In this document: in pieces, positions 21,791-56,752 of the stretch
Layout: the number at the start of each line of letters is the position of its first letter
Position numbering within the stretch: position 1 is the stretch's first letter
Origin: Mycolicibacterium sp.
Lineage (GTDB): Bacteria; Actinomycetota; Actinomycetes; Mycobacteriales; Mycobacteriaceae
Length of the DNA stretch: 64,000 nt
Direction of reading: 5' to 3'
Assembly: GCA_020637165.1 (NCBI GenBank)
Contig: JACJWN010000004.1
Span: 401,011 to 465,010, forward strand
Made by a program: the position numbers and the translations under genes
The notes under the pieces: generated by a model
Told to the model about the DNA's origin: nothing
Database searches by the model: none
The model's input: only the letters and a program-made list of their open reading frames with translations

Positions 21791-21819
21791 CGATATCGGT
21801 CACAACCCGATATTGGTCA
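21791..21819. repeat. Direct repeat in the amidase/eccA2 gap
   Basis: CGATATCGGTCA (21791-21802) and CGATATTGGTCA (21808-21819) match at 11 of 12 positions with a 17-bp period. The second copy runs into the eccA2 stop codon. It marks the left boundary of the ESX block; its function is unknown. Confidence 0.6.
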
Positions 21820-23664
21820 TAGCGTGATCGGCACATGTTTTTCCGCGCAGGCATCGACGACCGCCGCGACGATGTCCTGGGTTCGCAGCCTCTCCAGATC
21901 CTGGATCGTGACCGACCCACGATCCACCCGGTTCTGCGCCGCGACCCGCGAATCCCGCAGCCGCTCAGCCCGTTCCACCACGTTGCGGGCGAATCGCCCG
22001 TTCTGCATCAGGTCGATCCCGTGATTGCCGTCGGCGTCCAGATAATCACCCAACGTTCGGCACGCCACGTTGAGGGCATGGCGGGCCTCCGGATCGAGCA
22101 CCGTGGCCCTGGGGCTCCCGTAGCGAACGGCGATTTCCACGAGATCGTCGGGGCTATAGGAGGCGAACCGCAACTTCCGGTTGAACCGACCAGCCAGGCC
22201 CGGGTTGACCTTGAGAAAGTCGTCGACCTCGCGCTCGTAACCCGCTCCGATGAAACAGAAGTCGAACCGGTGGACCTCCAAAGCGACCAGGAGTTGATTG
22301 ACGGCCTCCATCCCGATCATGTCCGGGCGGCCATCATGATGGCGTTCCACCAGGCTGTAGAACTCGTCGAAGAACAGGATGCGGCCCAGCGAACGGTCGA
22401 TCAGGTCATTGGTTCTCGGCCCTGAGGACCCTATGTGCTCGCCACAGAAATCTGAGCGTTTGACGTCGATGATCTCCGGGTTGCGGACGAGACCGAGACC
22501 GGCGTAGATCTTCCCGAGCGCCTCGGCGGTGGTCGTCTTACCCGTGCCGGGTGGCCCGACCAGCAGCATGTGGTTCGTCTGGTTCGCCACCGGCAGTCCA
22601 TGTGCCAGTCGTAGCGCCCGCACCTCGATCTGGTCCTCGATCTCGGCGACAGCGCGCTTGACCTCGGCAAGACCGACCTGGCCGTGCAGCAGCGCACGGC
22701 CCTCGGCGAGAAGTTCGGCCCGCCGCTCAAGGTTGCGCTCCTCGGCCCGCGCTTCCTCCGAGCGGCCGGTGGTCGCATCCCACTTGTCGGTCCGACTGTT
22801 GATGGTCTCCTCGTCGGTGACGACCAGTTGCAGCCGTGGATCGGCCAGTGCCAGTTTGGCCTGGGGGATGGGGACACCGTTGACGACCGCCTTGGACAGC
22901 CAGATCTCGGCCTCGTCCTGCTGGTCGAGTTGCCGGTGCGCCATGCCGCGCGCGTAGGCGAGATCCGCAGCGATGAGCGGGAATTCGATCGGATCGAGCA
23001 CCGCGACTGAGGTCCGGTGATCGTTGCCGACCGAGACACCCGGATCGCACCGCGTTCGCACCTCGACCCGCTCGGCCCAATCCAGGGCCAGACGAGCCTG
23101 GCCGAGGTGCGCGGCGGCGTGGGCCGCCAGGGCGGCGGTGCCCGCCGTGACCGCCGGCATGATCAGGGCGTGGGCGGGTAGAACACGCGCAGCCTCGGCG
23201 ATGACGTCGGGCCACCGCTGGGTCGCGAACATCAGGTGGCCGCGAATGTGCTGGCGCCACTGGTGATTCTCCGGGCCGTCGAGCAGCGCATCATCGTCGA
23301 GAAGAACCTGCGCCTCCTCGAAACGGCCCGCATCGACCATCGCACCGGCCAGCGCGATGCCCACGTGCGATGCCTCGGTCACCGTGATCGACAGGTAAGG
23401 CCCGGCCCTGACCGCTGCGACGAGATTCAGCCCCAACCGATTGGACTCCCGATGCAGCCGCGCGCCGCGGCCGAAGAGGTTCTCCAGAGTTGACAAATCG
23501 GTGTCACCGGCGGCGATCCGGCCCAACCACGCATCGGCCATCGAAGGGTCGAGTTCGGTCGCTTCGCGGAAGAGCCGATAAGCCGATGCCGGTTCGGTCT
23601 CGAGGACCGACACTGCTTGGTCGAAATGCCGCCGCGCGGTGGCGGTCACGGTGCTGCTGGTCAT
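21817..23664 (-). CDS. eccA2: EccA2, ESX-2 type VII secretion AAA+ ATPase
   Basis: Cytosolic AAA+ ATPase of type VII secretion, thought to act on EspG-PE/PPE complexes before export. The 615 residues comprise an N-terminal TPR-like helical domain (about 1-290) and a C-terminal CbxX/CfqX ATPase domain. The domain has Walker A GPPGTGKT (Lys376), Walker B ILFFDEFYSL and the later arginine-containing GRFNRKLRF segment. The ATG at 23664 has GGCGGAG upstream and directly follows the eccE2 stop. It is the last gene of the locus, as Rv3884c is in ESX-2. Family is certain; ESX-2 membership rests on the linked esxC-like gene and gene order. Confidence 0.93.
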   Translation of the reverse strand: MTSSTVTATARRHFDQAVSVLETEPASAYRLFREATELDPSMADAWLGRIAAGDTDLSTLENLFGRGARLHRESNRLGLNLVAAVRAGPYLSITVTEASHVGIALAGAMVDAGRFEEAQVLLDDDALLDGPENHQWRQHIRGHLMFATQRWPDVIAEAARVLPAHALIMPAVTAGTAALAAHAAAHLGQARLALDWAERVEVRTRCDPGVSVGNDHRTSVAVLDPIEFPLIAADLAYARGMAHRQLDQQDEAEIWLSKAVVNGVPIPQAKLALADPRLQLVVTDEETINSRTDKWDATTGRSEEARAEERNLERRAELLAEGRALLHGQVGLAEVKRAVAEIEDQIEVRALRLAHGLPVANQTNHMLLVGPPGTGKTTTAEALGKIYAGLGLVRNPEIIDVKRSDFCGEHIGSSGPRTNDLIDRSLGRILFFDEFYSLVERHHDGRPDMIGMEAVNQLLVALEVHRFDFCFIGAGYEREVDDFLKVNPGLAGRFNRKLRFASYSPDDLVEIAVRYGSPRATVLDPEARHALNVACRTLGDYLDADGNHGIDLMQNGRFARNVVERAERLRDSRVAAQNRVDRGSVTIQDLERLRTQDIVAAVVDACAEKHVPITL

Positions 23665-23667
23665 GGC

Positions 23668-25179
23668 TTACTCCGCCATTTCCCACTGAGAACAGGTGAT
23701 GTAGCGGTTCTCGGCCCTGAAGAACTCCGGTTCGATGTCACAGCTCCACCCCCCGGAGGTCAGCTCGACGGCGGCCGCACCGGTTTGGGTGATCACGATG
23801 TCGGACGCAGGAGGCGCCGGACTGCCCGGGGGAGCCACCGAGAGCACGGTGTTGGGCCGTGGGGCGGGGGCGACCGTGCCGTCCACCACGCTGACCGTGG
23901 TACCCGGTGCGGGGCGTTGGTGCTCGATGACCGCGATGCCGGGCATCCGCACGCTTTGCCAGCCCGCGACGTCGGTGGTGTGGACGGTCACCCGCTGCCC
24001 CGCCGCTGCCGTTCGGATGACGATCCGCTTGGCTATCTCCTGCTCGGCGGCAATGTGCACCCGGGTCTGCTCGGCCGGGTCGCCCAGCGGCAGCAAAAGC
24101 CGCTCGCCCCTCGATATCTTGCCGATCAACACCCCGGAAGGTCCGATCGGGATCACCAGCGCCGGCGGAAGCCCACCTCGCAATAGACCGCGGACCTCTG
24201 GACGCGGTCCACACAGGTTGGCCGCCGCGGCGCCCGCCTGTTGGCCCGGCAGCGGCTGCAGGATCACCGCCGGCGGCGTGGTGGGAGGGCGGGACGTTCG
24301 CACCGTGACCGTCGTCGCGGCGGTTCCATCGGAGAACACCGTAATGTTCTGGATGATTGCGTCGGCTCGCAGTGACCACGCCTGCCCCAGCGCCTCGGAG
24401 GTGATATCTCCGGGCCGGTAGCCGTAACTCGTGTGCCACCCGGAATCGCCACGCAGGCTGCGCCAGCCGCGATTGCGTGGCCTCAGCACACTGGCGTCTA
24501 GGCGCTTCTCCAGTTCGATCATGTCTGTGGTGCTGGCGACCTTGGCCCGGATACCGCGGCATCGCAGCGACGCCGCGACCCGTTGCGCGGCGGTTAGAGC
24601 CGCCGTGCCGACGGTGGGCCGGTCGCGCAGTGCCTCACCGTTGTCGAGGGCATGCAGCCTGAGCACCAGCCAGGTCTCACGCCGGCCCGCATAGGGCGTG
24701 TTCCCGATCAGCGTGTCGTAGATAGCCGGGTAGTCCCCGCCGCTTCCCCGGCGCGCCCCTGCGGTGATTACGCTGAGCGAATCCAGTTCCAGCCCCAGGC
24801 TTTGACGCATCAGCGGCACCAATTCGGCGACGTCGACCGTGTTCGTTGTCTCGACCGTCGCCGATCCGGTGAAAACCGTTGGCTGCCATTGCTTTCCGAC
24901 AAGTTGAATCGCCGCGACGGCGATTCCGCCCTGATACCTAACGCCTCCCCCGGAGCGGTCGTTGACGACGGTTACCGGATCCGAAAGATCGAAGCACCGG
25001 TCCCGGGTGAGGTAGAGCCATGCCCACGACCACCCCGGCTGCCCTCGCCAGGGCACGACGAGAACGGCCACCCCGAGTGCCACCCCCGCCGCTGCGCCGA
25101 TGTGGTCCGCCAGACTCCAGCCGATGGTTCCGAATATGAAGACCCCCGCTGCGACGGCAAGGCGAATACCGTCCCTCAT
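23668..25179 (-). CDS. eccE2: EccE2, ESX-2 membrane core component
   Basis: Peripheral subunit of the EccBCDE membrane complex that stabilises the pore. The 503 residues start with two membrane segments (about residues 6-22 and 28-45), followed by a large soluble domain with the EccE pattern (VTVVNDRSGGGVRYQGGIAV). The ATG at 25179 overlaps the mycP2 stop by 4 bp (ATGA). Similarity between EccE paralogues is low, so the ESX-2 label depends on position between mycP2 and eccA2 (as Rv3885c). Confidence 0.88.
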   Translation of the reverse strand: MRDGIRLAVAAGVFIFGTIGWSLADHIGAAAGVALGVAVLVVPWRGQPGWSWAWLYLTRDRCFDLSDPVTVVNDRSGGGVRYQGGIAVAAIQLVGKQWQPTVFTGSATVETTNTVDVAELVPLMRQSLGLELDSLSVITAGARRGSGGDYPAIYDTLIGNTPYAGRRETWLVLRLHALDNGEALRDRPTVGTAALTAAQRVAASLRCRGIRAKVASTTDMIELEKRLDASVLRPRNRGWRSLRGDSGWHTSYGYRPGDITSEALGQAWSLRADAIIQNITVFSDGTAATTVTVRTSRPPTTPPAVILQPLPGQQAGAAAANLCGPRPEVRGLLRGGLPPALVIPIGPSGVLIGKISRGERLLLPLGDPAEQTRVHIAAEQEIAKRIVIRTAAAGQRVTVHTTDVAGWQSVRMPGIAVIEHQRPAPGTTVSVVDGTVAPAPRPNTVLSVAPPGSPAPPASDIVITQTGAAAVELTSGGWSCDIEPEFFRAENRYITCSQWEMAE

Positions 25180-26696
25180 CTGGCCCTCCGCGCCCTGCCG
25201 ATGATCGCGGCCAGCACCGCGGTCGCCGCCACCGTTCCTGCGAAGGCCAACGCAACTGTTCGGGCCCGGCGGTCCGGGGGTTCGGGCGGTGGGGGCGGCG
25301 TCACCACCCTGGCCTGCGCCCCGGGTGCGACGGGATCGCCGGCCGGCACGTCAAAGGTCAGCGCGGCCACCGGATCGACCACGCCGTACCCGATGCGGTT
25401 GTCGACGCCACGCGGCGGATTGTGCGCTGTCTGGAGTATCCGGTTGATCACCTGGCGGGCCGTCAGCTGTGGATACTTCGCCCGGACCAGTGCGGCGACA
25501 CCACTGACATAGGCCGCCGAGAAGCTGGTACCCCAGAACGGCATGGCGTTCTCACCAGGCCGACCCGGTGGATACGCATTGACCGGCGCTCCGTCATGCG
25601 GGGAGAGCCCCATGATGCCAACGCCGGGCGCCGCCACCGAGACCCAGGGGCCGGCGAGGCTCTTGGCCACCGGAATCCCCTTGTTGTCGACAGCTCCGAC
25701 CGAAAGCACATAGTCGGCGAACCATGACGGAGAGGAGACCGTCCTGACGTGATTCCAGTCCCGCGGATCATCATTGTCCAGCGGGTTGAGTTCGGGGTTC
25801 TGCGCGCACCCGTCCTCCCCCTCGTTGCCCCCGGCCGCGACGATGACGGCGTCCTTGGCCATCGCCGCAAACCAGACCGCCGCCCCGAGTGCACGCTGGT
25901 CGAGGGGGTCAGCCGCCGGTACACATGCCGTCACGCTGACGTTGATGACCTTGGCGCCCAGATTGGCGGCATGGACGATCGCCTTGGCAAGCGTTGAGAC
26001 CGTGCCCGCCTTCCGCCGCCTCTGAACGTCGACCGAGCCCGGACTCACCGGTTCGTAGGCCCGCGAGGACTGCCGGATCGAGATAACCGTCGCATGCGGC
26101 GCGATGCCCGCAACGCCGTCCGGAGGGACGGGCCGCGGTTCTGCCGGTGTCGGAGTCGCCGGTGACGGTGGCGCGGGCCGCGGCGCACTCCCGCCGAGTA
26201 CGGGTGGTCCGCCGACAGGCTGCGGGAACGCAGGGCTTGGCGGCATGGGAGCCGGCATCGGTGAGCCTTGCGGAGCGGCGTTGATCAACGAGGCCACGAT
26301 CGTCCCGTGAGCGTCGCAGTCGGTCAGACCATCCCCGCCCATGATGTAGTCGCCGCCGCCGACGACCGACAGGCGGCGGTTGGGTGTGACGCCGGTATCG
26401 ATGACCGCGACGGCGACGCCGTTACCCGTGGAGTGCCGCCACGCCGCGCGGGTGTTGAGCATGGAGAAACCCGGCGCCGGCAGGCCGATATCGGGATCCC
26501 CCGCGGCGACCGCCTGGGCGCAGACGTTGCTCTGTCGCATTGGCAGCTCCGGTCCGGGTGTGCCGTCGGACGGCACCAGCGCGGGGTCGACGGAAGGGGG
26601 TTCGATTGCCAACGCCTGCGGGAAGCCGAACGTGAGCCCGGTCAGCAGCACCACCAGCGCGGCGGCGCTCGACCGTACGAATCTGGATCGCCTCAC
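25176..26696 (-). CDS. mycP2: MycP2, ESX-2 mycosin (subtilisin-like protease)
   Basis: Membrane-anchored periplasmic serine protease of type VII secretion, required for stability of the secretion complex. The catalytic triad is complete: Asp100 (VIDTG), His130 (DAHGT) and Ser391 (GTSFS). A signal peptide ending near PQALA precedes the mature start, and one C-terminal membrane segment (TVALAFAGTVAATAVLAAI) precedes an Arg-rich tail. After the His, a loop of about 60 residues is very rich in Pro, a longer version of the insertion seen in mycosins. The start is the GTG at 26696, overlapping the eccD2 stop (GTGA), giving 506 residues. Confidence 0.93.
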   Translation of the reverse strand: MRRSRFVRSSAAALVVLLTGLTFGFPQALAIEPPSVDPALVPSDGTPGPELPMRQSNVCAQAVAAGDPDIGLPAPGFSMLNTRAAWRHSTGNGVAVAVIDTGVTPNRRLSVVGGGDYIMGGDGLTDCDAHGTIVASLINAAPQGSPMPAPMPPSPAFPQPVGGPPVLGGSAPRPAPPSPATPTPAEPRPVPPDGVAGIAPHATVISIRQSSRAYEPVSPGSVDVQRRRKAGTVSTLAKAIVHAANLGAKVINVSVTACVPAADPLDQRALGAAVWFAAMAKDAVIVAAGGNEGEDGCAQNPELNPLDNDDPRDWNHVRTVSSPSWFADYVLSVGAVDNKGIPVAKSLAGPWVSVAAPGVGIMGLSPHDGAPVNAYPPGRPGENAMPFWGTSFSAAYVSGVAALVRAKYPQLTARQVINRILQTAHNPPRGVDNRIGYGVVDPVAALTFDVPAGDPVAPGAQARVVTPPPPPEPPDRRARTVALAFAGTVAATAVLAAIIGRARRAR

Positions 26697-28267
26697 CGCA
26701 TTCGCACCCAGGTGAACAGCCCGCCGAGCCAGGCGGCCAGCGGCAACGCCACCACGATGGCGGCCAATTCGAGCCACTCAGCGGCCATTCGTACCAGAGG
26801 GGTGAACCGCGCGGCCGGTATCAACAGCGCCGCGGCCAAACCCAGACCGGCGAACACTGTCAGGAACAGGCTTCCCCACAGCAGCGGCACGACCGGGGCC
26901 GCCGGAGAGGACAGAACATAGCGGACCGTACCGCTGCAGAATCCCGCCGCGGCCCCACCGACCAGAGCGATTGCTTGATTCCGGTCGGTGAACGCCCGCC
27001 CCCTGCTGATGAAGATCAGCACGAAGAGACCCGCCAGGATCGCCGCGGGGATGCCCCTCGGCCGCCCAGGTGTCAAAGTCGCCCACACCGCGACAGGAAG
27101 AACGATCGCCGCTGCCACGCAGATGCCGGTCAGAACTCCGTTGGCGGTGCGGGCGGCCTCGGCGATGACCGTCCCGGGCGCCGTTCTGTCCGGACTCGGT
27201 TCCTCCTCAGCGTGCTCGTCCACCGGTATGACGGCGTCGACCGGCATACCGTCGCCGCGGCGGAAGAGTTCGCGTCCGGTGATCGATCCGAAGTGGGGCG
27301 GCCGGATCCGCGCCGCCCGCAGCGCGAGCGTCGGCGCCACCGTGATCAGGACGAGAAGTCCGATCAGTGTCCCCATCCCCAGCCGTTGAGCCCCCACGGG
27401 TTGCCACATACGTACCGCCGAAACGAGAACAGCCACCGCACAGAGGGTTACGACCGTTGCCGAGGCCGTGACGTAGCGATGCGCAGCCGCTGACAGCCCC
27501 GCCACCATGACGCCCATTGCCAGTGCCCCGATGAACAGGTGCGCCGCGCCGACCCGACCGGGGGCTACAGCTGCAAGACCCACCGACAATGGCACCACCG
27601 CCGACCAGCCGAGGATTCCCCACAATTCCGGCTGCCCGGGCCACCATCTGCGGGCCCATACGCCCCCAACCGCCAGAAGCGTGCCGGGAATCAGGGCGGC
27701 GAGCGATGCCCCCCACGAGTCGGTAAGCAGTCGCGTGTGCACCGTAAGAGTGGTAGCGACCAGGACGGCCATCGCGATGATCGCCAGTGCCGTCCGCTGC
27801 GCGGTCTGCGCGGTGACCGGGGTGAAAAGCCGCTTGCCAACCCGAGCCAAACCTGTCGACAACGATTCATATTGGGGCACGAAGGAGTCACCCGGTTCGG
27901 CCGGCACCAGGACCAGGGTGGCGCCGTCTTCGACACCCAGTTCGTCGAGATTCCGGGAGATGTCGAGACGAGTTCCGTTGGCACGGTGCAACTCATAGGC
28001 CAGCCCTGGATCCAGGGCCGCCCCACCGCGGCGCCTCAGGTCCTCGTCAAGGAGTTCAACGATGTCATCGATGAACACCTCGACGGGTATCGAGGCCGGG
28101 TACACCTGGGAGACAAGGTGTTCGCCATAGATCACCGCGACGGCGCAGCGCGCCGGGAAAGCAGCCTTCGGCGCTGTTGCAACAGCAGTTGGTGGGACAG
28201 CCGGTGCCGGAGCATTCGTGTTCGGGCCAGACGGTATCGGGCCCGACGTCGTCGGAGCAGCCATCAC
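26693..28267 (-). CDS. eccD2: EccD2, ESX-2 integral membrane pore protein
   Basis: Main membrane-spanning subunit of the type VII pore. The 524 residues comprise a Pro/Thr-rich N-terminal tail, a ubiquitin-like cytosolic domain (about 36-118; RCAVAVIYGEHLVSQVYPA), a linker, then about eleven membrane segments from about residue 160 to the C-terminus. The GTG at 28267 overlaps the stop of the upstream gene (GTGA); an ATG three bases later at 28264 is an equal alternative. Order is as Rv3887c. Confidence 0.92.
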   Translation of the reverse strand: MMAAPTTSGPIPSGPNTNAPAPAVPPTAVATAPKAAFPARCAVAVIYGEHLVSQVYPASIPVEVFIDDIVELLDEDLRRRGGAALDPGLAYELHRANGTRLDISRNLDELGVEDGATLVLVPAEPGDSFVPQYESLSTGLARVGKRLFTPVTAQTAQRTALAIIAMAVLVATTLTVHTRLLTDSWGASLAALIPGTLLAVGGVWARRWWPGQPELWGILGWSAVVPLSVGLAAVAPGRVGAAHLFIGALAMGVMVAGLSAAAHRYVTASATVVTLCAVAVLVSAVRMWQPVGAQRLGMGTLIGLLVLITVAPTLALRAARIRPPHFGSITGRELFRRGDGMPVDAVIPVDEHAEEEPSPDRTAPGTVIAEAARTANGVLTGICVAAAIVLPVAVWATLTPGRPRGIPAAILAGLFVLIFISRGRAFTDRNQAIALVGGAAAGFCSGTVRYVLSSPAAPVVPLLWGSLFLTVFAGLGLAAALLIPAARFTPLVRMAAEWLELAAIVVALPLAAWLGGLFTWVRMR

Positions 28268-29295
28268 CGGGGCCTGTCGGCATCGGGAACGTACTTGTCT
28301 GCCAGAGTCGCAGCGATCTCGAGAAGCCGAAGCCGGGCCTTCTTGTGAAGTTCGCCCCGGGTATCGATGATTCCGCCCTCAGCCAGGTGCGGGTCGAAGG
28401 GCATGAACTCGACGTCTGCGCCGGTCTGGGCGAATCTCTCGGTGAGGTAGTCCCGGGCGTCCTTGTCGTAGCCGTTGCGGGCGTCGTTGAGAATCACGGT
28501 GCTCCGCGACACCAATTCGTGGTAGCCCATCGAGCGCAAAAGGTCGATGGCCCGCGTGACGGGCAGGGACGCGTCGGCGGTCAGGCCGGAGACGAACACC
28601 AGCGCGTCGGCCGCGTCCAGAACCGCCTCCATCACCGGATGTTCGAGATCGTCGGAGGTATCGACGAGGATCACGTTGTGGGTCCGGCGAAGTCGTGCCA
28701 GGACGCCGCTGAACATCGCGGGAACCAGGGGCCTGGGCTGATCGGACATCCGATTGCCGGCAAGGACGTCGAGCCCAACGGCGTTCTGCCCCAGATGTTC
28801 ACGGATGTCGGCGTAGCCCTGGACGTCGGCGTCGTTGAGCACACCCGCATAGTCGCCCGGAGGGGATTCGTCGATGCGACCGGCCAGGGTCCCGAAGCCC
28901 GGCGCGGCATCGACCGCGACGACATTCTCGGTTCGGCACTCACGGAAAACCCCGCCGATACATGCCGTCATCGTGGTCTTGCCCACACCACCCTTGCCGG
29001 AAACGAAGGCGATCACATACTGCTTGCGAATGTGTCGGCGAATGCGGTCGCGAAGCGCTCGGTGGTGCCGTTCGGCGGGCGACTCACCCGGATTGACCGT
29101 CTTGAAGGACAGCGCGAAAACGATTTTGCGCCAACCCGAGGCGGGGGGGACCTTGCGAGGGGCCACCATGTCCGAGATCCGCAACGTCCCGGACACGGAA
29201 TCCGACCGGAACCGATTAGGAGATTCGGACGGATCTCTGTCGACCGCCGACGGCGGATTCTCCGGGAGTACCGCCCCCTTCCAGGAAGTGCTCAC
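28264..29295 (-). CDS. ESX-2-associated ParA/MinD-like ATPase (Rv3888c homologue)
   Basis: Member of the SIMIBI P-loop ATPases found inside ESX loci. The N-terminal 90 residues are polar and probably disordered. A deviant Walker A follows, SGKGGVGKTT (Lys101 and Lys106), then ENVVAVDAAPG and NVILVDTSDD, the later switch and Walker B regions. It resembles EspI of ESX-1, which has been linked to regulating secretion according to ATP level. No membrane segment is visible, although Rv3888c has been annotated as a membrane protein. The GTG at 29295 directly follows the espG2 stop, with AAGGTG upstream. Its role in ESX-2 is inferred. Confidence 0.82.
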   Translation of the reverse strand: MSTSWKGAVLPENPPSAVDRDPSESPNRFRSDSVSGTLRISDMVAPRKVPPASGWRKIVFALSFKTVNPGESPAERHHRALRDRIRRHIRKQYVIAFVSGKGGVGKTTMTACIGGVFRECRTENVVAVDAAPGFGTLAGRIDESPPGDYAGVLNDADVQGYADIREHLGQNAVGLDVLAGNRMSDQPRPLVPAMFSGVLARLRRTHNVILVDTSDDLEHPVMEAVLDAADALVFVSGLTADASLPVTRAIDLLRSMGYHELVSRSTVILNDARNGYDKDARDYLTERFAQTGADVEFMPFDPHLAEGGIIDTRGELHKKARLRLLEIAATLADKYVPDADRPR

Positions 29296-30129
29296 CTAAA
29301 TCACCTTTCTGTAGCAATGCCAGTCATCCCGGGCCGGCAATCGGCGCAACATCCGCTGCACCGCGGCGGAGATGCCGAGGCTCGAGGCGGGTCCGACGAT
29401 CATCCAGGTCCTGCCGCCGCGAGAGTCGTGCTCGGAAATCAGCCGACCCTGGGGGGTGTCGATGATGGTTACGGTGGTCGATCCGATGCGCGAGTCGGCC
29501 GGGTGCCCGGCCCCGCCGGACTGGAGTGCCACCAGGGAGAACTGGGCTGAGTGCTCACCGTCGGACGCCAGCATCAAGGACCCGACCTGGTCTGCCTCCA
29601 ATCCACACTCGCGAAGGAAGCTGTGCAGCGTCGCGCGGTCGCGAACCACCGCCAACAGTTCGGTGGCATCCAATGTCATCGGCTTGACCTCAGCCGGCGA
29701 CTTCTCGCCGCAGAGACGTTGGATCTGGGACTGGATCAGCAGACCCGCGGACCGCTCGCTGCAGGCCGTGCCGGCACCGCTGAGCCGGATCAGGATTCCG
29801 CAGCGCTCCAGGCTGACCCACCATTGCGCGAACCTGGCCAAAAGCGCCTGTTCGAACCCGGATCCCGTGGTGGGCGTCTGGGCGTGTAAGAGCAGGCCGA
29901 CCTCCCGTCGCGCGAGGACGGTCAGCCATTCGAGGACGGTCTGGTCCACCTCACCGGTCGAACTGACGGCGCCCGACGCCTGGAGTTCGTCGGCCACCGG
30001 ATGCGCCAACGCCACTTGGGCGCTCTCCACGCTGGGCAGGTGTGGGCGCAGGCCAAGTTCGGGTGCCAGCACCTCGATACCCGACAGCACCTGGAGAACC
30101 CAAAGGCCGTCAAGAGTGGTCGTCAACAT
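29296..30129 (-). CDS. espG2: EspG2, PE/PPE-specific export chaperone
   Basis: Cytosolic chaperone that binds the tip of a cognate PE-PPE pair and delivers it to its own ESX system. The 277 residues show the EspG opening (TTTLDGLWVLQVLSGIEVLAPELGLRP) and the alternating strand/helix pattern with a late SLVALQSGG strand. EspG proteins diverge strongly, so system assignment relies on the flanking esxC and Rv3888c-like genes. The ATG at 30129 follows GGGGGA. A hairpin lies between this gene and esxC, so its transcription may be lower than that of esxD-esxC. Confidence 0.88.
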   Translation of the reverse strand: MLTTTLDGLWVLQVLSGIEVLAPELGLRPHLPSVESAQVALAHPVADELQASGAVSSTGEVDQTVLEWLTVLARREVGLLLHAQTPTTGSGFEQALLARFAQWWVSLERCGILIRLSGAGTACSERSAGLLIQSQIQRLCGEKSPAEVKPMTLDATELLAVVRDRATLHSFLRECGLEADQVGSLMLASDGEHSAQFSLVALQSGGAGHPADSRIGSTTVTIIDTPQGRLISEHDSRGGRTWMIVGPASSLGISAAVQRMLRRLPARDDWHCYRKVI

Positions 30130-30151
30130 TCACGTATCCCCCGACATGACG

Positions 30152-30182
30152 CGGTGGGCGCGCGGATTCAGCGCGCCCACCG
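30152..30182 (-). terminator. Hairpin between esxC and espG2, probable attenuator
   Basis: A perfect 12-bp inverted repeat, CGGTGGGCGCGC (30152-30163) with GCGCGCCCACCG (30171-30182), has a 7-nt loop and sits in the 68-bp gap after esxC. No T-run follows in the direction of transcription. It could end or slow transcription after the small substrate genes, or protect the 3' end of their mRNA. Confidence 0.55.
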
Positions 30183-30197
30183 ACCCATGCCAATCGT

Positions 30198-30485
30198 CTA
30201 GAAGAGGTTCCCCATCATCAGGTCGGTCTGGTGGGCACTTTCGTTGACGCTGCTGATCGTCTGCCCGTGCTTGTTCATCGTGTGGATGAGCCCCTTGAGG
30301 CCCCCCAGCATCTGCATCTGCGATTCGTGGAACGCGGTGGCCGCAGCGCCCTGGAAGAAGTCGGCGATCGCGTTGGTGCGCTGCGCGATGTCGTCATGGA
30401 TCTGCATCAGCTGTGCCGAGCGGGCCCCGACATCGGAGGCGAAGTCGGCGACGCCGCCGTGGTTGTAGGTGATGTTGTCAGACAT
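30198..30485 (-). CDS. esxC: EsxC-like WXG100-family substrate of ESX-2
   Basis: Small helical-hairpin protein secreted as a heterodimer with its esx neighbour. The 95 residues begin MSDNITYNHGGVADFASDVGARSAQL, closely resembling EsxC (Rv3890c) and identifying the locus as ESX-2. The turn holds FFQG in place of the canonical WxG, as I recall for EsxC, which has FFAG. No C-terminal YxxxD/E export motif is visible. The ATG at 30485 has an AAAGGA site. It follows esxD by 25 bp. Confidence 0.92.
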   Translation of the reverse strand: MSDNITYNHGGVADFASDVGARSAQLMQIHDDIAQRTNAIADFFQGAAATAFHESQMQMLGGLKGLIHTMNKHGQTISSVNESAHQTDLMMGNLF

Positions 30486-30510
30486 TGACTGGTCCTTTCG
30501 AGACAGGGGG

Positions 30511-30816
30511 TCAGGCGTTCGCGGCGAACGCCGTGAGGCTGTGGGCGGCTTCGGACTCGTGCCCCTCCATCAGCGATGCCGCCTGGCTGAGCCCGTGAGC
30601 CAGGCGGGTGCCGCCGGTGATCGTCTGCTGGAGGTCCTGATTGATCTGGGCGGCGGTATGCACCGACGCCAGCTGGGCCTGACCGCCCCAGACGGCCGAG
30701 CCGAGACCCTCGTGGGTACTCAGGTAGCCGTTGGCGATGGCCGTGGCGTGTTCGAGCGCCGATTCGATGGCGTTTCGGGTGCTGCGGAGCACCTCAGGTG
30801 TGACGACGAGTGTCAT
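30511..30816 (-). CDS. esxD: EsxD-like WXG100-family protein
   Basis: Partner of EsxC in a predicted helical heterodimer. The 101 residues show the WXG100 layout, with the turn motif VWGGQ at about residues 42-46 and two flanking helices. Order before esxC matches Rv3891c. The sequence contains one Tyr (GYLSTHEGL) and no YxxxD/E motif at the C-terminus, so the pair may take its export signal from elsewhere. The ATG at 30816 has AGGAAAG upstream. Confidence 0.87.
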   Translation of the reverse strand: MTLVVTPEVLRSTRNAIESALEHATAIANGYLSTHEGLGSAVWGGQAQLASVHTAAQINQDLQQTITGGTRLAHGLSQAASLMEGHESEAAHSLTAFAANA

Positions 30817-30872
30817 GTGTTCTTTCCTGTGTTGGCGGTCATGTGATCGACCCCGGATCGGGGCGGATTTCG

Positions 30873-30901
30873 AGTATTCGACGCTGGAACGCGGCTGTCA
30901 C
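30873..30901 (-). promoter_or_regulatory. Candidate internal promoter for esxD-esxC
   Basis: On the minus strand GTGACA (30901-30896) and AATACT (30878-30873) are separated by 17 bp; they match sigma-A boxes at five and four of six positions. The site lies in the 137-bp gap between the PPE gene and esxD, about 57 bp before the esxD start. A short CCCCG-GAT-CGGGG hairpin (30851-30863) follows it. Confidence 0.45.
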
Positions 30902-30953
30902 TTCACCCTTCGGCAAACACGTTTTCCCATTCCCCCTTCGGTTTTTTTGTTAG

Positions 30954-32201
30954 CTATTCAGGGTTGTGACGACCTCGCCCAGGGGGCGCCAGAACCCGTG
31001 CTCGCGGCAGCCCGTCCCCCTCCTGGTGGTCTTTGCCACGAGCCGGGCCGACGGGCGGTGCCATCGGCATCCCCGCAGCGCCGATCGGGCCCGCCGTCGG
31101 TCCCCGTTGTTCCCCGGCGCTGAGCAGGCCGGTTTTCAAGCCCACCGGCCGACCACCGCTCTCCGGCGGGAAACTACTGTTGGGCCTGGTGAAGTTGGTC
31201 AAACCAGCGCCGGGAATGCCGCCACCCAGACCGCTGCCGCCCACCGTCGAACCCGGGGCGGCGCCACCCGCAGCCCCTGCGCCGACTCCCCCCGCGCCAG
31301 CCGGGTTCGCCGCGGCACCGACGAACGCACCCGGCAGGCCGAACTCTCCCACCGGGACTGCATCCCTCAGCCCGCCAAGCGGGCCGGTCATCGACTGCAA
31401 CAGTCCGGACGTGCCGCCGGCGGCCTGTATCGGAGTCTGAAACATGCCCATCGCAGGCTGCATCGCACCCAGGGCGGACTGAATCGGTTGCATCATCGAG
31501 CCGATCCGCCCCGCTTGGCCGGCCGCCTCAGCCGGGGCGGCAGCACCGTCACCCGCCGCCGTTGCGAGCTGCGCCGATTCCTCAAACACCCCGCCGGCAA
31601 CGGCCTGCGCCGCGCTCTGGGCCGCGGCGGCCGCCGCCGGCGCGGCGGCCGACGCCCCCGGCGGGGACAGCGGCGGTGGGACGGCCAGCGCCGCGGACAG
31701 CACCCCGAGCGCAGATCCGTAGGCGGCTCCCGCCGCCGCGTTGTGCGGCCAGTGCTCACCGAAATAGGCGGCGTCCAGCGCCACGATCGCGGGGGTAAGA
31801 GCCCCGAGGACCAGCGGGTTCATCGCCACGTCAGCCGCCTGCTCGGTGCGGTTGGCGATCGAGACCGCGGCCGGGATCATCGATGACACAGCTGTCTCGT
31901 AGGCCGAGACGGCGCTCGCCGCGATCGGCGGCTTCTCCTGGGCCCAGCCGGCCAGCATCTGTAACGCGGCGTTCAGACCGGTCACCGCGGCGGTAGAGCT
32001 CAGCCCGCCCACGCCTTCGAAGTCCACCGCCGTCGCCGTGGCGTTGAGCGCGGAGGCCGAGGACGCCAGCTCGTCACCGATCGCCAGCGCCTGCCATGCG
32101 GCCGCGCTGGCCACCGTTGTCGCGGTGCCGGCCACGCCCGGCCCGGCCAGCCTCAGATAGTTGACCTCAGGCGGTGATGACGACCATGAAGGATCCGGCA
32201 T
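30954..32201 (-). CDS. PPE69: PPE protein of the ESX-2 locus (PPE69-like)
   Basis: PPE-family protein expected to pair with the PE protein encoded immediately upstream and to be exported through an ESX system. The 415 residues carry the Pro-Pro-Glu motif at residues 10-12, followed by the helical PPE domain (about 1-180). The C-terminal region is rich in Ala, Gly and Pro, without the MPTR or SVP repeats of expanded PPE families. It ends with a charged tail (RGKDHQEGDGLP). The start is the ATG at 32201, 12 bp after the PE stop. The family is clear; the PPE69 name follows from position (Rv3892c). Confidence 0.88.
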   Translation of the reverse strand: MPDPSWSSSPPEVNYLRLAGPGVAGTATTVASAAAWQALAIGDELASSASALNATATAVDFEGVGGLSSTAAVTGLNAALQMLAGWAQEKPPIAASAVSAYETAVSSMIPAAVSIANRTEQAADVAMNPLVLGALTPAIVALDAAYFGEHWPHNAAAGAAYGSALGVLSAALAVPPPLSPPGASAAAPAAAAAAQSAAQAVAGGVFEESAQLATAAGDGAAAPAEAAGQAGRIGSMMQPIQSALGAMQPAMGMFQTPIQAAGGTSGLLQSMTGPLGGLRDAVPVGEFGLPGAFVGAAANPAGAGGVGAGAAGGAAPGSTVGGSGLGGGIPGAGLTNFTRPNSSFPPESGGRPVGLKTGLLSAGEQRGPTAGPIGAAGMPMAPPVGPARGKDHQEGDGLPRARVLAPPGRGRHNPE

Positions 32202-32213
32202 GACAACGCCGCC

Positions 32214-32513
32214 CTACAGCGCCAGAGCCGCGTTGTTGACAGCGTCGGTAGCGCTGTAGGTCACCGCGGCGAGGTGCTGCGCCTCGGCGAACAGAGCGCG
32301 GTTCGCCAGATGCTCGCCGGCGCTCCCGACGTACGCGGCGCCCGCGGAGTTCAGTGCGGTGGCGAAGGCAAGCGAGTCCAGGTCCGCGCCCATCGGCAGC
32401 ACCCCGACCAGCGCCTCCGCGGCGGCAGCGGTTGCCGCCGCCAACGTCGCGCCGATGCCCGTCTCCGTCGCAGCGGATCCTACAACCGTTGCTGAATTGA
32501 CATTCAGGATCAT
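32214..32513 (-). CDS. PE36: PE protein of the ESX-2 locus (PE36-like)
   Basis: Short PE-family protein, predicted partner of the adjacent PPE protein. About 99 residues form a helical hairpin without a PGRS tail. The C-terminal segment contains YSATD, which fits the YxxxD/E export signal of type VII substrates. The N-terminus (MILNVNSATVVGSAATETGI) lacks a clear PE dipeptide, as in short, early-diverging PE proteins of ESX loci. I chose the ATG at 32513, preceded by an AAGGGGTGGAG purine stretch; a GTG at 32531 and the next ATG are in frame. It is the first gene of the ESX block here, where eccC2 would be expected upstream. Confidence 0.82.
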   Translation of the reverse strand: MILNVNSATVVGSAATETGIGATLAAATAAAAEALVGVLPMGADLDSLAFATALNSAGAAYVGSAGEHLANRALFAEAQHLAAVTYSATDAVNNAALAL

Positions 32514-32744
32514 GCTCCACCCCTTCATCACCCGCTCGCCCGAGTGGCGAACGGGCGTCAGCCTAGAGTGTGCTGGAGGATGCTGTCGAGTCAGTTATTT
32601 CGTTTGCTAGCAAATTTCATGTGGAAGCGCTGTACAGAATCGCGCAACCCCCGGATTCCCGACCCTGCCGACCCGTTTCGCCAGCAGCGCCTACCATCGG
32701 GTCATAGTGTGATTCCCGACACTTTCGGCCCCGAGGAGGCCCCT
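32514..32744. other. Divergent gap and probable rearrangement junction between the ESX-2 block and the Rv0250c block
   Basis: This 231-bp gap separates PE36 (minus) from the Rv0250c homologue (plus). It is where eccC2 and eccB2 should begin if the locus followed the M. tuberculosis order. The stretch 32590-32640 is visibly richer in A and T than its surroundings and contains a perfect 12-bp palindrome, TTTGCTAGCAAA (32603-32614). I see no remnant of eccC or eccB in any frame and no insertion sequence. Promoters for both divergent genes must lie here, but no clear pair of boxes stands out. Confidence 0.6.
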
Positions 32745-33041: not shown

Positions 33042-33110
33042 CCCGACTTTAGAAACGGGTCCGCGTCTGAGTAGTGTTCCCTGCAGTTGACTCGAAGGGG
33101 ATCACTGCAG

Positions 33111-33929
33111 ATGAGCGCACCCACAGCCAATCGTCCCGCCACCGGTGTCTTCTCACCCGGTCGGGCGCAGATTCCACAACGGACGCTGCGCACGGACAAT
33201 TGGCTGCGATCGCCCATCCTCGTCGACCTCGGTTTCGCCGCGTTCGTCATCTACGCGACGGTCCGGGCGTTCCAGCAGAACAACTTCTTCGTCGAGAAGT
33301 ACCACTACCTCACCCCTTTCTACTCGCCGTGTATCAGCAAGGGTTGCGGAGCGGCCAGCGAGTTCTGGCCGCAGCTGCTGCCCGACGTCTGGTGGCTTCC
33401 CTACGCGGCGCTGTCACTGCCGTTCCTACTGCTTTTCCGACTGACCTGCTACTACTATCGCGGCGCCTACTACCGGTCGGTCTGGCAAGCTCCGACGGCC
33501 TGCGCGGTGGCCGAGCCGCACGCCACCTACACCGGTGAGACCCGGCTCCCGCTGATCATCCAGAACAGCCACCGGTACTTCTTCTACATCGCGGCCATCA
33601 TCTCGGTGATCAACACCTACGACGCGATCAAGGCGTTCCACTCGCCGTCCGGCTTCGGCCTGGGACTGGGCAACCTGATCCTGGTGGGCAACGTCATCCT
33701 GCTGTGGATCTACACGCTGAGCTGCCACTCCTGCCGGCACGTGACCGGCGGACGGCTCAAACACTTCTCCAAGCACCCGGTCCGGTACTGGATCTGGACG
33801 CAGGTCAGCGCGATCAACACCCGGCACAAGATGTTCGCGTGGATCACCCTCGGCTCGCTGATGCTCACCGATTTCTACATCATGCTCGTCGCCAGTGGCA
33901 CCATCTCCGACCTGAGATTCATTGGCTGA
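33111..33929 (+). CDS. sdhC: Succinate dehydrogenase 1 membrane anchor (Rv0249c homologue)
   Basis: Membrane subunit that anchors SdhAB and carries electrons to menaquinone. The 272 residues contain about five membrane segments (from ILVDLGFAAFVIYATV to TLGSLMLTDFYIML). There are two Cys-rich sites, PCISKGC and SCHSCRH. The second, with two Cys and two His, is a plausible ligand set for the Rieske-type cluster reported in mycobacterial Sdh1. The start is the ATG at 33111 with AAGGGG upstream. It is followed by sdhA after 38 bp. Confidence 0.88.
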   Translation: MSAPTANRPATGVFSPGRAQIPQRTLRTDNWLRSPILVDLGFAAFVIYATVRAFQQNNFFVEKYHYLTPFYSPCISKGCGAASEFWPQLLPDVWWLPYAALSLPFLLLFRLTCYYYRGAYYRSVWQAPTACAVAEPHATYTGETRLPLIIQNSHRYFFYIAAIISVINTYDAIKAFHSPSGFGLGLGNLILVGNVILLWIYTLSCHSCRHVTGGRLKHFSKHPVRYWIWTQVSAINTRHKMFAWITLGSLMLTDFYIMLVASGTISDLRFIG

Positions 33930-33967
33930 CCTGGTTTTACCGATAGTTGCAGTGAGGACGAGAAGTT

Positions 33968-35884
33968 ATGGTTGAAGTCGAACGGCATTCGTACGACGTT
34001 GTCGTGATCGGTGCCGGGGGCTCGGGGCTGCGCGCGGTGATCGAGGCTCGTCAGCGCGGGCTACGGGTGGCGGTGGTGAGCAAGTCGTTGTTCGGCAAGG
34101 CGCACACCGTGATGGCCGAGGGTGGCTGCGCGGCCGCGATGGGCAACGCCAACTCCAAGGACAGCTGGCAGGTGCACTTCGCCGACACGATGCGCGGCGG
34201 CAAATTCCTCAACAACTGGCGAATGGCCGAGCTGCACGCCCAGGAGGCACCCGAGCGGGTGTGGGAGCTGGAGACTTACGGCGCGCTGTTCGACCGGACC
34301 AAGGACGGCCGGATCAGCCAGCGCAACTTCGGCGGCCACACCTACCCGCGGCTGGCTCACGTCGGCGACCGCACCGGCCTGGAGATCATCCGCACCCTGC
34401 AGCAGAAGATCGTCTCGCTGCAGCAGGAAGACAAGGCCGAACTGGGTGACTACGAGGCCCGGATCAAGGTCTTCGCCGAATGCTCGATTACCGAGTTGAT
34501 CACCGAGGGAGGCCGGATCGCCGGGGCGTTCGGCTACTGGCGCGAGACCGGCAAGTTCATCCTCTTCGAGGCGCCGGCGATCGTGCTGGCCACCGGCGGC
34601 ATCGGCAAGTCGTTCAAGGTGTCGTCGAACTCCTGGGAGTACACCGGCGACGGCCACGCGCTGGCGATGCGGGCCGGGTCCTCGCTGATCAACATGGAGT
34701 TCATCCAGTTTCACCCGACCGGAATGGTCTGGCCGCTGTCGGTGAAGGGCATCCTGGTCACCGAGGGCGTGCGCGGCGACGGCGGGGTTCTGAAGAACTC
34801 CGAGGGCAAGCGGTTCATGTTCGACTACATCCCCTCAGTGTTCAAGGGTCAGTACGCCGAGACCGAGGAGGAGGCCGACCAGTGGCTCAAGGACAACGAC
34901 TCGGCTCGGCGCACCCCTGACCTGCTGCCCCGCGACGAGGTCGCCCGGGCGATCAACACCGAGGTCAAGGCCGGCCGGGGCACCCCCCACGGCGGCGTTT
35001 ACCTCGATATCGCGTCGCGGATGACCCCTGAGGAGATCAAGCGGCGGCTGCCCTCGATGTACCACCAATTCCTCGAACTGGCCGAGGTCGACATCACCAA
35101 GGACGAGATGGAGGTCGGACCGACCTGCCATTACGTGATGGGCGGCATCGAGGTCGATCCCGATACCGGGGCGGCGGCCACCCCCGGCCTGTTCGCCGCC
35201 GGCGAATGCGCCGGCGGTATGCACGGCTCCAACCGCCTGGGCGGAAACTCGCTGTCCGACCTGCTGGTATTCGGCCGGCGCGCCGGACTCGGCGCCGCGG
35301 ACTACGTTCGCGGTCTGTCGAACCGGCCCACGGTGTCCGAAGCGGCGGTCGAGGAGGCCGCCGGGATCGCGCTGGCTCCGTTCAAGGGGCCGGAGGGCCG
35401 CGAGAAGCCGGAGAACCCCTACGCGCTGCACGCGGAGTTGCAGCAGACGATGAACGACCTCGTCGGGATCATCCGCACCGGCGGGGAGATGCAGGAGGCG
35501 CTGGACCGGATCGAGGAACTGAAGGTCCGCTTCCGCAACATCGAGTCCGACGGACGCCGCGAGTTCAACCCGGGCTGGCACCTTGCCATGGACATGCGCA
35601 ACATGCTCCTGGTCAGCGAATGTGTGGCGAAGTCCGCGCTGGCGCGCACTGAGAGCCGCGGCGGCCACACCCGCGACGACTTCCCGCAGATGGACTCGCA
35701 CTGGCGCCGCTCGCTGGTGGTGTGCCGCTCGGCCGGCGACGATCCGGTGATGCCGGAGGTCCGCGTCACCCCCGAACAGCAGCCCCCGATGCGTGAGGAT
35801 CTGCTCGAACTGTTCGACATCGAGGAACTCGGCAAGTACTTCACCGACGAGGAGCTTGCGCAACACCCGGGACGGAGGGGCTAG
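33968..35884 (+). CDS. sdhA: Succinate dehydrogenase 1 flavoprotein subunit
   Basis: Oxidises succinate to fumarate and passes electrons to SdhB. The 638 residues show the FAD-binding GAGGSGLRA motif (residues 15-23), His46 in AHTVMAEGG for covalent FAD attachment, the substrate segment QFHPTGMV, and a late HGSNRLGGNSL loop. Length and sequence style match Rv0248c rather than the Sdh2 paralogue. The stop codon directly abuts the sdhB start, so translation is coupled. Confidence 0.95.
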   Translation: MVEVERHSYDVVVIGAGGSGLRAVIEARQRGLRVAVVSKSLFGKAHTVMAEGGCAAAMGNANSKDSWQVHFADTMRGGKFLNNWRMAELHAQEAPERVWELETYGALFDRTKDGRISQRNFGGHTYPRLAHVGDRTGLEIIRTLQQKIVSLQQEDKAELGDYEARIKVFAECSITELITEGGRIAGAFGYWRETGKFILFEAPAIVLATGGIGKSFKVSSNSWEYTGDGHALAMRAGSSLINMEFIQFHPTGMVWPLSVKGILVTEGVRGDGGVLKNSEGKRFMFDYIPSVFKGQYAETEEEADQWLKDNDSARRTPDLLPRDEVARAINTEVKAGRGTPHGGVYLDIASRMTPEEIKRRLPSMYHQFLELAEVDITKDEMEVGPTCHYVMGGIEVDPDTGAAATPGLFAAGECAGGMHGSNRLGGNSLSDLLVFGRRAGLGAADYVRGLSNRPTVSEAAVEEAAGIALAPFKGPEGREKPENPYALHAELQQTMNDLVGIIRTGGEMQEALDRIEELKVRFRNIESDGRREFNPGWHLAMDMRNMLLVSECVAKSALARTESRGGHTRDDFPQMDSHWRRSLVVCRSAGDDPVMPEVRVTPEQQPPMREDLLELFDIEELGKYFTDEELAQHPGRRG

Positions 35885-36634
35885 ATGAGCTACCAGGCAA
35901 ACCTGCGGGTGTGGCGCGGCGACGACGAGGGCGGCGGGCTGCACGATTTCACCGTCGCGGTCAACGAGGGCGAGGTCGTCCTCGACATCATTCACCGGCT
36001 GCAGGCCGAGCAGGCCCCGGACCTCGCGGTGCGGTGGAATTGCAAGGCCGGCAAGTGCGGTTCCTGTTCGGCGGAGATCAACGGCCGACCGCGGCTCATG
36101 TGTATGACCCGGATGTCGACCTTCGACCCCGCCGAGACCGTCACGATCACTCCTTTGCGCACCTTCCCGGTGATCCGCGATCTGGTCACCGATGTGTCCT
36201 TCAACTACGAGAAGGCCCGCGAGATCCCTTCGTTCGCACCGCCGAAGGATCTCCAGGCCGGCGAGTACCGGATGGCCCAGATCGACGTGGAACGCTCCCA
36301 AGAGTTCCGCAAGTGCATCGAATGCTTCCTCTGCCAGAACGTCTGCCACGTGGTGCGTGACCACGAGGAGAACAAGAAGGCCTTCGCCGGCCCGCGTTTC
36401 CTGATGCGCACCGCCGAGCTGGACATGCACCCGCTGGACACCCTGGACCGCAAGGACATGGCCCAGGAGGAATTCGGCCTCGGTTACTGCAACATCACCA
36501 AGTGCTGCACCGAGGTGTGCCCCGAGCACATCAAGATCACCGACAACGCCCTGATCCCGATGAAAGAACGGGTTGTCGACCGCAAGTACGACCCGGTGGT
36601 CTGGCTCGGCAACAAGCTGTTCAAGCGAAAGTAG
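35885..36634 (+). CDS. sdhB: Succinate dehydrogenase 1 iron-sulfur subunit
   Basis: Carries electrons from SdhA to the membrane anchor. The 249 residues contain a [2Fe-2S] site (Cys53, Cys58, Cys61, Cys73) and two further cluster sites: Cys144/147/150 with Cys212, and Cys154 with Cys202/207 or 208. These give the usual 2Fe-2S, 4Fe-4S, 3Fe-4S series. It begins on the base after the sdhA stop. It corresponds to Rv0247c and ends the operon. The 71 bp to the convergent flavin reductase gene contain no strong hairpin. Confidence 0.95.
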   Translation: MSYQANLRVWRGDDEGGGLHDFTVAVNEGEVVLDIIHRLQAEQAPDLAVRWNCKAGKCGSCSAEINGRPRLMCMTRMSTFDPAETVTITPLRTFPVIRDLVTDVSFNYEKAREIPSFAPPKDLQAGEYRMAQIDVERSQEFRKCIECFLCQNVCHVVRDHEENKKAFAGPRFLMRTAELDMHPLDTLDRKDMAQEEFGLGYCNITKCCTEVCPEHIKITDNALIPMKERVVDRKYDPVVWLGNKLFKRK

Positions 36635-45340: not shown

Positions 45341-45694
45341 ATTCTTCCCTCCCCGACTCTGACCGCCTCCGGCCGCTGCTGGGCGGCGCTGTGGCGCGCT
45401 TCCAAGATAGCCTCCGCCGCTGAAACGGGGTCCCGGAGCGGTCCCACCCTCCCAAGGGGCGCCGTGCTGGCACAACGGAACGCCGTGGCGGCACGAAGGT
45501 ACGGCGGCAGCGAGCAATACGCACCTCAGGCGGTACGCAGTCCGCCGTCAGCAACGACCGTGCAATACTGGCTCTCTGGAGATGAGTCGGGCCCACGACT
45601 TGGCCTTGGCCGCTCACCAACCCGATCGGGGCCGTGACGCGATCTCCCCTCAATGACATCGATACATCACCGGCGGGAGCGGGGGTCCATCCTG
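45341..45694. other. Divergent papA3/pks promoter region
   Basis: This 354-bp gap separates papA3 (minus) from the synthase (plus). It holds the strong papA3 ribosome-binding site at 45344-45353. GCAATAC occurs twice (45515-45521 and 45562-45568). AATACT at 45564-45569 could be a -10 box for the synthase, but no convincing -35 precedes it. No other gene is visible. Confidence 0.5.

Positions 45695-56752
<11,058 letters not shown>

Follow-up and report, generated by a model that had tools for sequence, protein, structure and literature searches.

The ESX-2 genes of Mycobacterium tuberculosis, Rv3884c-Rv3895c, are contiguous, and they are likewise contiguous in four relatives (genomes G122, G160, G345 and G307), where the order eccB2-eccC2-...-espG2-...-eccA2 is followed by gltB-gltD-type genes and where the PE, PPE and esx genes lie between eccC2 and espG2 (inspected in G122 and G345). 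The locus described here has the same components and internal order as these contiguous loci, in which, however, eccB2-eccC2 stands directly before the PE gene. Split ESX-2 loci are already in print, and the lineage studied here is a further case. In the M. avium complex, a 'transposition of EccB2 and EccC2' is reported in the excerpt considered here (Newton-Foot et al. 2016, PMC4791881), which sets eccB2-eccC2 apart from the rest, as is probable for our locus. For M. paragordonae, the excerpt at hand divides ESX-2 between two chromosomal regions far apart, with pe36, eccC2 and eccB2 in the second (PMC6616192); the probable likeness lies in the two regions with eccB2/eccC2 in the second, and the difference in pe36, which is found there with eccC2-eccB2, whereas PE36-PPE69 accompanies the esx genes in our locus. 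According to the relevant passage on M. decipiens and M. riyadhense, ESX-2 there also falls into two genomic sections, which PCR has confirmed for M. decipiens (PMC11237670); the arrangement is like the one proposed here, but the lineage differs. An excerpt of a further paper, on a topic other than the split, counts eccC2 among hypermutated regions (PMC8025370). Among the open-access papers listed, there was no report of a split ESX-2 for the present lineage and no genus-wide count of ESX-2 breakpoints.

The window, that is, the whole stretch of DNA analysed, comprises 64,000 nucleotides of a Mycolicibacterium sp. draft genome (assembly GCA_020637165.1, contig JACJWN010000004.1, positions 401,011 to 465,010). 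Judging from comparison with sister genomes, it is very probable that ESX-2 here consists of two units about 53 kb apart, that the operon is cut between eccC2 and PE36, and that eccB2-eccC2 falls into an assembly gap. The apparent paradox of an intact secretion locus without its motor would then become a known operon break combined with a probable assembly gap.

The PE36-eccA2 unit and its junction

Ten intact ESX-2 genes occupy 21817-32531 on the minus strand, from PE36 to eccA2 and without eccB2 or eccC2, in the order PE36, PPE69, esxD, esxC, espG2, a gene for an Rv3888c-like MinD/ParA ATPase, eccD2, mycP2, eccE2 and eccA2 (Table 1). A sequence-only reading of the window had listed the same ten genes in this conserved order, and all ten open frames were found as named. 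Although the open frame of PE36 extends to 32531, a start at 32513 is more likely from the alignment. EccA, EccE, the mycosin and EccD all score above their NCBIfam cut-offs (467, 108, 279 and 95 bits, respectively), while the two WXG100 proteins reach 37 and 34 bits with NCBIfam, below the cut-off of 45, and 48 and 35 bits with Pfam, above the cut-off of 27. The catalytic motifs, previously claimed to be intact, are present as well: EccA2 contains GPPGTGKT, the mycosin aligned with the mycosin-5 structure has the triad D127/H157/S418, and EccD2 has ten hydrophobic segments. EccD, EccE, MycP, EccA, EspG, PE/PPE and an Esx pair are all present in conserved order, and orthologues of the window's eccD2 adjoin an EccC2-type protein in relatives, which points to ESX-2 rather than to another ESX type. 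A consensus scan found no promoter.

Table 1. Features of the ESX-2 locus and its surroundings, in positions of the window
Feature	Position	Strand	Evidence or remark
PE36-type PE protein	32214..32513	-	Pfam PE 30.8 bits; start from orthologue alignment
PPE69-type PPE protein	30954..32201	-	Pfam PPE 70.4 bits; dN/dS 0.20-0.22 in two comparisons
esxD, WXG100 protein	30511..30816	-	Pfam 34.6 bits; 88-98% identity to three relatives
esxC, WXG100 protein	30198..30485	-	Pfam 47.7 bits; 86-98% identity to three relatives
espG2, PE-PPE chaperone	29296..30129	-	Pfam EspG 99.8 bits
Rv3888c-like MinD/ParA-type ATPase	28264..29295	-	Pfam CbiA 34.6 bits; motif GKGGVGKT
eccD2, membrane channel component	26693..28267	-	TIGR03920 298 bits
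mycP2, mycosin protease	25176..26777	-	TIGR03921 349 bits; catalytic triad
eccE2	23668..25179	-	TIGR03923 232 bits
eccA2, AAA+ ATPase	21817..23664	-	TIGR03922 622 bits; Walker A
Rearrangement junction	32514..32744	.	Position of eccC2 in contiguous loci; here a divergent non-ESX gene and succinate dehydrogenase genes instead
Succinate dehydrogenase/fumarate reductase genes flanking PE36	33087..36634	+	Flavoprotein and iron-sulfur subunits by family match
First flanking gene, sdhC-type by position only	33087..33929	+	No family match; also before PE36 in L017
End of contig C27	63990..64000	.	Collinear HKST-UBA37 contig runs on, with eccC2-eccB2 about 21.6-27.2 kb further on the strand of PE36

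The PE36 junction was compared with that of sister genomes, as the sequence-only reading had proposed. The same divergent gene adjoins PE36 in HKST-UBA37 (contig C106, in its non-chimeric part) and in O_S4.2_bin.13, at species-level divergence and with an alignable intergenic region; these alignments show the junction to be genuine and of long standing. A misjoin at 32.5 kb setting PE36 beside foreign DNA, which had been raised as a possible refutation, could appeal to the chimeras known in this group, C106 among them, but is contradicted by the recurrence of the junction in two other genomes and is very improbable. Contig C106 of HKST-UBA37 (G206) shows 77-96% identity to the window between 20 and about 35.9 kb, rising to 99.2-100% thereafter, the chimeric stretch being the equivalent of window 35.9-57.8 kb, in which the contig passes from its own species to near-window DNA. 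Therefore, only its earlier part was used as junction evidence.

On its left flank, the window carries pks13, fadD32, a decaprenyl-phosphate phosphoribosyltransferase gene, glfT2 and glf. In terms of the M. tuberculosis map, the window brings together the Rv3800-Rv3811 and Rv0247c-Rv0250c regions, which are on opposite sides of the replication origin, and an origin-spanning rearrangement is a likely cause of the split. Insertion of a mobile element between eccC2 and PE36 was considered and judged less likely than rearrangement: several of the intervening frames have no family match, but those that do are of ordinary chromosomal kinds (succinate dehydrogenase, AMP-ligase, MMPL, condensation domain, polyketide synthase, acyl-CoA dehydrogenase, GH3, AftD and acyltransferase). 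The polyketide synthase, a two-module type I enzyme of 3699 aa, is encoded at 45653-56752, between the ESX-2 units and beside a condensation-domain protein and an MMPL transporter.

The eccB2-eccC2 pair, probably beyond the contig end

The claim that eccC2 and eccB2 are absent from the window was borne out, and the absence extends to the whole assembly (3,847,137 bases in 32 contigs, 94.31% complete). Neither EccB nor EccC was found among the window proteins examined, and profile searches of the whole assembly gave no EccB match and no EccC match above the cut-off of 346.55, the single EccC match of 38.9 bits falling in a 906-aa frame that is taken for FtsK. The proposed count of EccB and EccC against EccD over the whole assembly is thus zero EccB, zero EccC over the cut-off and one EccD, the window's own eccD2. 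In control searches the EccB profile matched none of 14 control genomes and, at E 0.001, 35 of 36 same-genus relatives, the sole relative without a match being an 84%-complete draft of about 720 contigs, while EccC exceeded its cut-off in 31 of 32 genomes, the exception being the window's genome.

Three relatives, HKST-UBA35, HKST-UBA37 and O_S4.2_bin.13, have an eccD2 that is 91%, 83% and 68% identical to that of the window, respectively. All three (3/3) contain EccC over the cut-off, and in each of them eccB2-eccC2 is separate from the other ESX-2 genes and next to an enoyl-CoA hydratase gene. HKST-UBA35 and HKST-UBA37 have both genes in full, and in O_S4.2_bin.13 eccB2 is interrupted by contig ends. 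In HKST-UBA37, eccC2 (1365 aa) and eccB2 (496 aa) are adjacent and the enoyl-CoA hydratase gene follows eccC2, as it does in HKST-UBA35; glt genes lie upstream of eccB2 in HKST-UBA37, and an amidase gene comes after eccA2. Both units of the split are visible in HKST-UBA37 and O_S4.2_bin.13, HKST-UBA35 shows the eccB2-eccC2 side, and the window's genome the PE36 side only. ESX typing of any EccC found elsewhere had been called for by the sequence-only reading; the best match of the sister EccC is the solved EccC2, its ATPase-3 domain scoring 234 bits against 110 for EccC5, 92 for EccCb1 and 54 for EccC3, and the protein is 81% identical to the EccC from the ESX-2 locus of four relatives. Judged by these matches, the sister EccC is of the EccC2 type. 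A small conserved frame, which we take to be YbaB/EspL-like, terminates just before eccB2 on the same strand (L087, 15.1-15.5 kb; L089, 0.4-0.8 kb), so that the eccB2-eccC2 unit may begin further upstream.

Selection was estimated as dN/dS by the Nei-Gojobori method (own script), with the window genes compared with HKST-UBA35, HKST-UBA37 and O_S4.2_bin.13 under a length filter. All 26 comparisons of the ten window genes that passed the filter gave values of 0.06-0.28, and the values were 0.11-0.23 for eccB2/eccC2 of HKST-UBA37 in six comparisons with HKST-UBA35, O_S4.2_bin.13 and G122. Such ratios indicate that the window genes and the sister eccB2-eccC2 are under purifying selection and that both units are kept.

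The last base of the window is also the last base of its contig, C27 (465,010 bases). Over its bases 1-27990, HKST-UBA37 contig C154 is collinear with window 35933-64000 (91.8% and 90.5% identity) as far as the final base of the window. C154 continues with GH3 and AftD-type genes, next with eccC2 and eccB2 (49574-55165, minus strand, the same as that of PE36), and after these with gltD/gltB-type genes. By this HKST-UBA37 map, the distance from PE36 to eccC2 is most likely about 53 kb. It is this one MAG contig that bridges the contig end; it shows no identity jump and is 88-93% identical to HKST-UBA35. When the window's assembly was searched genome-wide at the DNA level, C154 40001-60000 and 60001-80000 gave no near-sister match, for which about 91% identity was expected; the best matches of C154 40001-80000 were 1.4 kb at 76%, and others of 63-74% or of fewer than 100 bases (40 candidates scored after a first look). 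C154 beyond 27990 likewise had no near-sister match (>200 bases, E 1e-20) in 51 contig-end pieces and one inner stretch; C16 and C24 contributed no far-end piece, and C154 27991-40000 was compared with contig pieces only. Thus, besides EccB and the EccC motor, much of the sister's eccB2-eccC2 region is missing from the assembly, including the nearby glutamate synthase genes gltBD, and the absence of DNA far past eccB2-eccC2 is the mark of an assembly gap. Since C154 is collinear to the contig end, with eccB2-eccC2 beyond it and the surrounding DNA unmatched, two units of which one is unassembled are the most likely arrangement.

A recent deletion that took eccB2-eccC2, perhaps together with tens of kb of neighbouring DNA, and left the ten genes still undecayed would agree with the absence of EccB and EccC from a 94.3%-complete assembly and with the lack of the flanking genes. 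It is nevertheless unlikely, since the missing DNA includes glutamate synthase, collinearity stops exactly at the contig end, as at an assembly gap, HKST-UBA35, about 94% identical to the window at the DNA level where compared, retains the pair, and the ten genes are all intact and constrained. Loss is rejected as the main reading because DNA around eccB2-eccC2, gltBD included, is missing too, and ESX-2 here is probably not a motorless system. The sequence-only reading had proposed that EccB and EccC are supplied from another site, either relocated or borrowed, or else that they were lost very recently. Relocation is supported by the sisters, in which the pair is apart, is of the EccC2 type and lies on the HKST-UBA37 continuation of the window's contig. 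Borrowing, in which EccB and EccC of another ESX system would serve EccD2/EccE2/MycP2, has a precedent for possible donors in the paralogous systems of HKST-UBA35 and HKST-UBA37, none of which was found in the window's assembly. It is highly unlikely, and is rejected because no donor was found: the window's assembly has no further EccB, EccC or EccD, and in O_S4.2_bin.13 (85% complete) the split ESX-2 accounts for the only EccB, EccC over the cut-off and EccD found.

Under the preferred reading of two units, a chromosomal rearrangement would have cut the ESX-2 operon between eccC2 and PE36. The window locus would be the downstream unit and eccB2-eccC2 the upstream one, on the same strand at a distance of about 53 kb, the draft assembly stopping about 21.6 kb short of it. 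The two units would be transcribed separately, EccC2, the motor, and EccB2 would join EccD2/EccE2/MycP2 in the membrane, and EspG2 and EccA2 would handle PE/PPE substrates with EsxC/EsxD as co-substrates, as in other ESX systems.

Split ESX-2 and other ESX systems among relatives

The survey joined the best 149 of 169 genomes with eccD2 and the best 149 of 208 with eccB2, orthology being taken as best match. Among the matches listed, 130 genomes have both eccD2 and eccB2, 46 of them on different contigs, which is uninformative; the 84 with both on one contig comprise, again among the matches listed, 48 contiguous and 36 split cases. Breakpoints were inspected in 20 of the 36 split genomes, and lie between PPE and esxD in 11, a type resembling M. 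paragordonae, and between eccC2 and PE in nine. Six survey genomes of one eccD2 clade, which we suspect to be members of the M. avium complex, are broken between eccC2 and PE like our locus, but their units are 138-577 kb apart on opposite strands, as against probably about 53 kb, the same strand and other neighbours here. A third layout was also observed (loci L274, L275, L282, L287 and L290), with PE-PPE ahead of eccB2-eccC2 in G218 and G276 and gltD ahead of esxD in G218 and G151; an amidase gene follows eccC2 in all three genomes. In the split genomes G031 (L251) and G124 (L266), the eccC2 match is in two pieces, perhaps through frameshifts or sequencing errors.

On an eccD2 tree of 76 rows, at least six changes between contiguous and split are required with all labels, five being forced by well-supported branches, and three when the tree is restricted to the 57 one-contig cases. 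The label split was given to 37 rows, 20 with both units on one contig and 17 with separate contigs or one side only, and MFM001 carried no label. Because branch support is SH-aLRT from a quick search and the window's clade includes the contiguous G233, it is uncertain how many origins there were. The distribution suggests that integrity of the ESX-2 operon is dispensable and has been lost more than once. If it is dispensable, ESX-2 offers a natural case for the maintenance of stoichiometry in a membrane machine whose motor and channel genes are unlinked. Calling ESX-2 complete or incomplete from a single locus is a trap.

The EccB, EccC and EccD models detected no ESX system besides ESX-2 in the window's assembly. 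O_S4.2_bin.13 (85% complete) yielded a single EccD, a single EccC above the cut-off and an EccB in two contig-end pieces, and G218 (97% complete) one EccB and one EccD. In the single-contig G122 there are two matches each for EccB and EccD, one EccD being under the cut-off, and no third of either, in keeping with ESX-2 plus one ESX-4-like system; further ESX systems besides ESX-2 are present in HKST-UBA35 and HKST-UBA37. We offer only as a tentative and rather doubtful proposal that, in some small-genome members, no type VII system but the split ESX-2 is left, ESX-3 and ESX-4 both being absent, and it alone does the work that several systems do in others, the eccC2-PE-PPE-esxD stretch being a hinge cut repeatedly without loss of constraint.

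An additional ESX cluster in HKST-UBA35 (L091; G281 C257) reads eccC-PE-PPE-esx-espG-eccB-..-eccD, as named from sequence starts, an order that we take to be that of plasmids. EccC matches of equal score, 597.1 bits, occur in two different MAGs (G281 C257 and G291 C431), which suggests a recently shared element.
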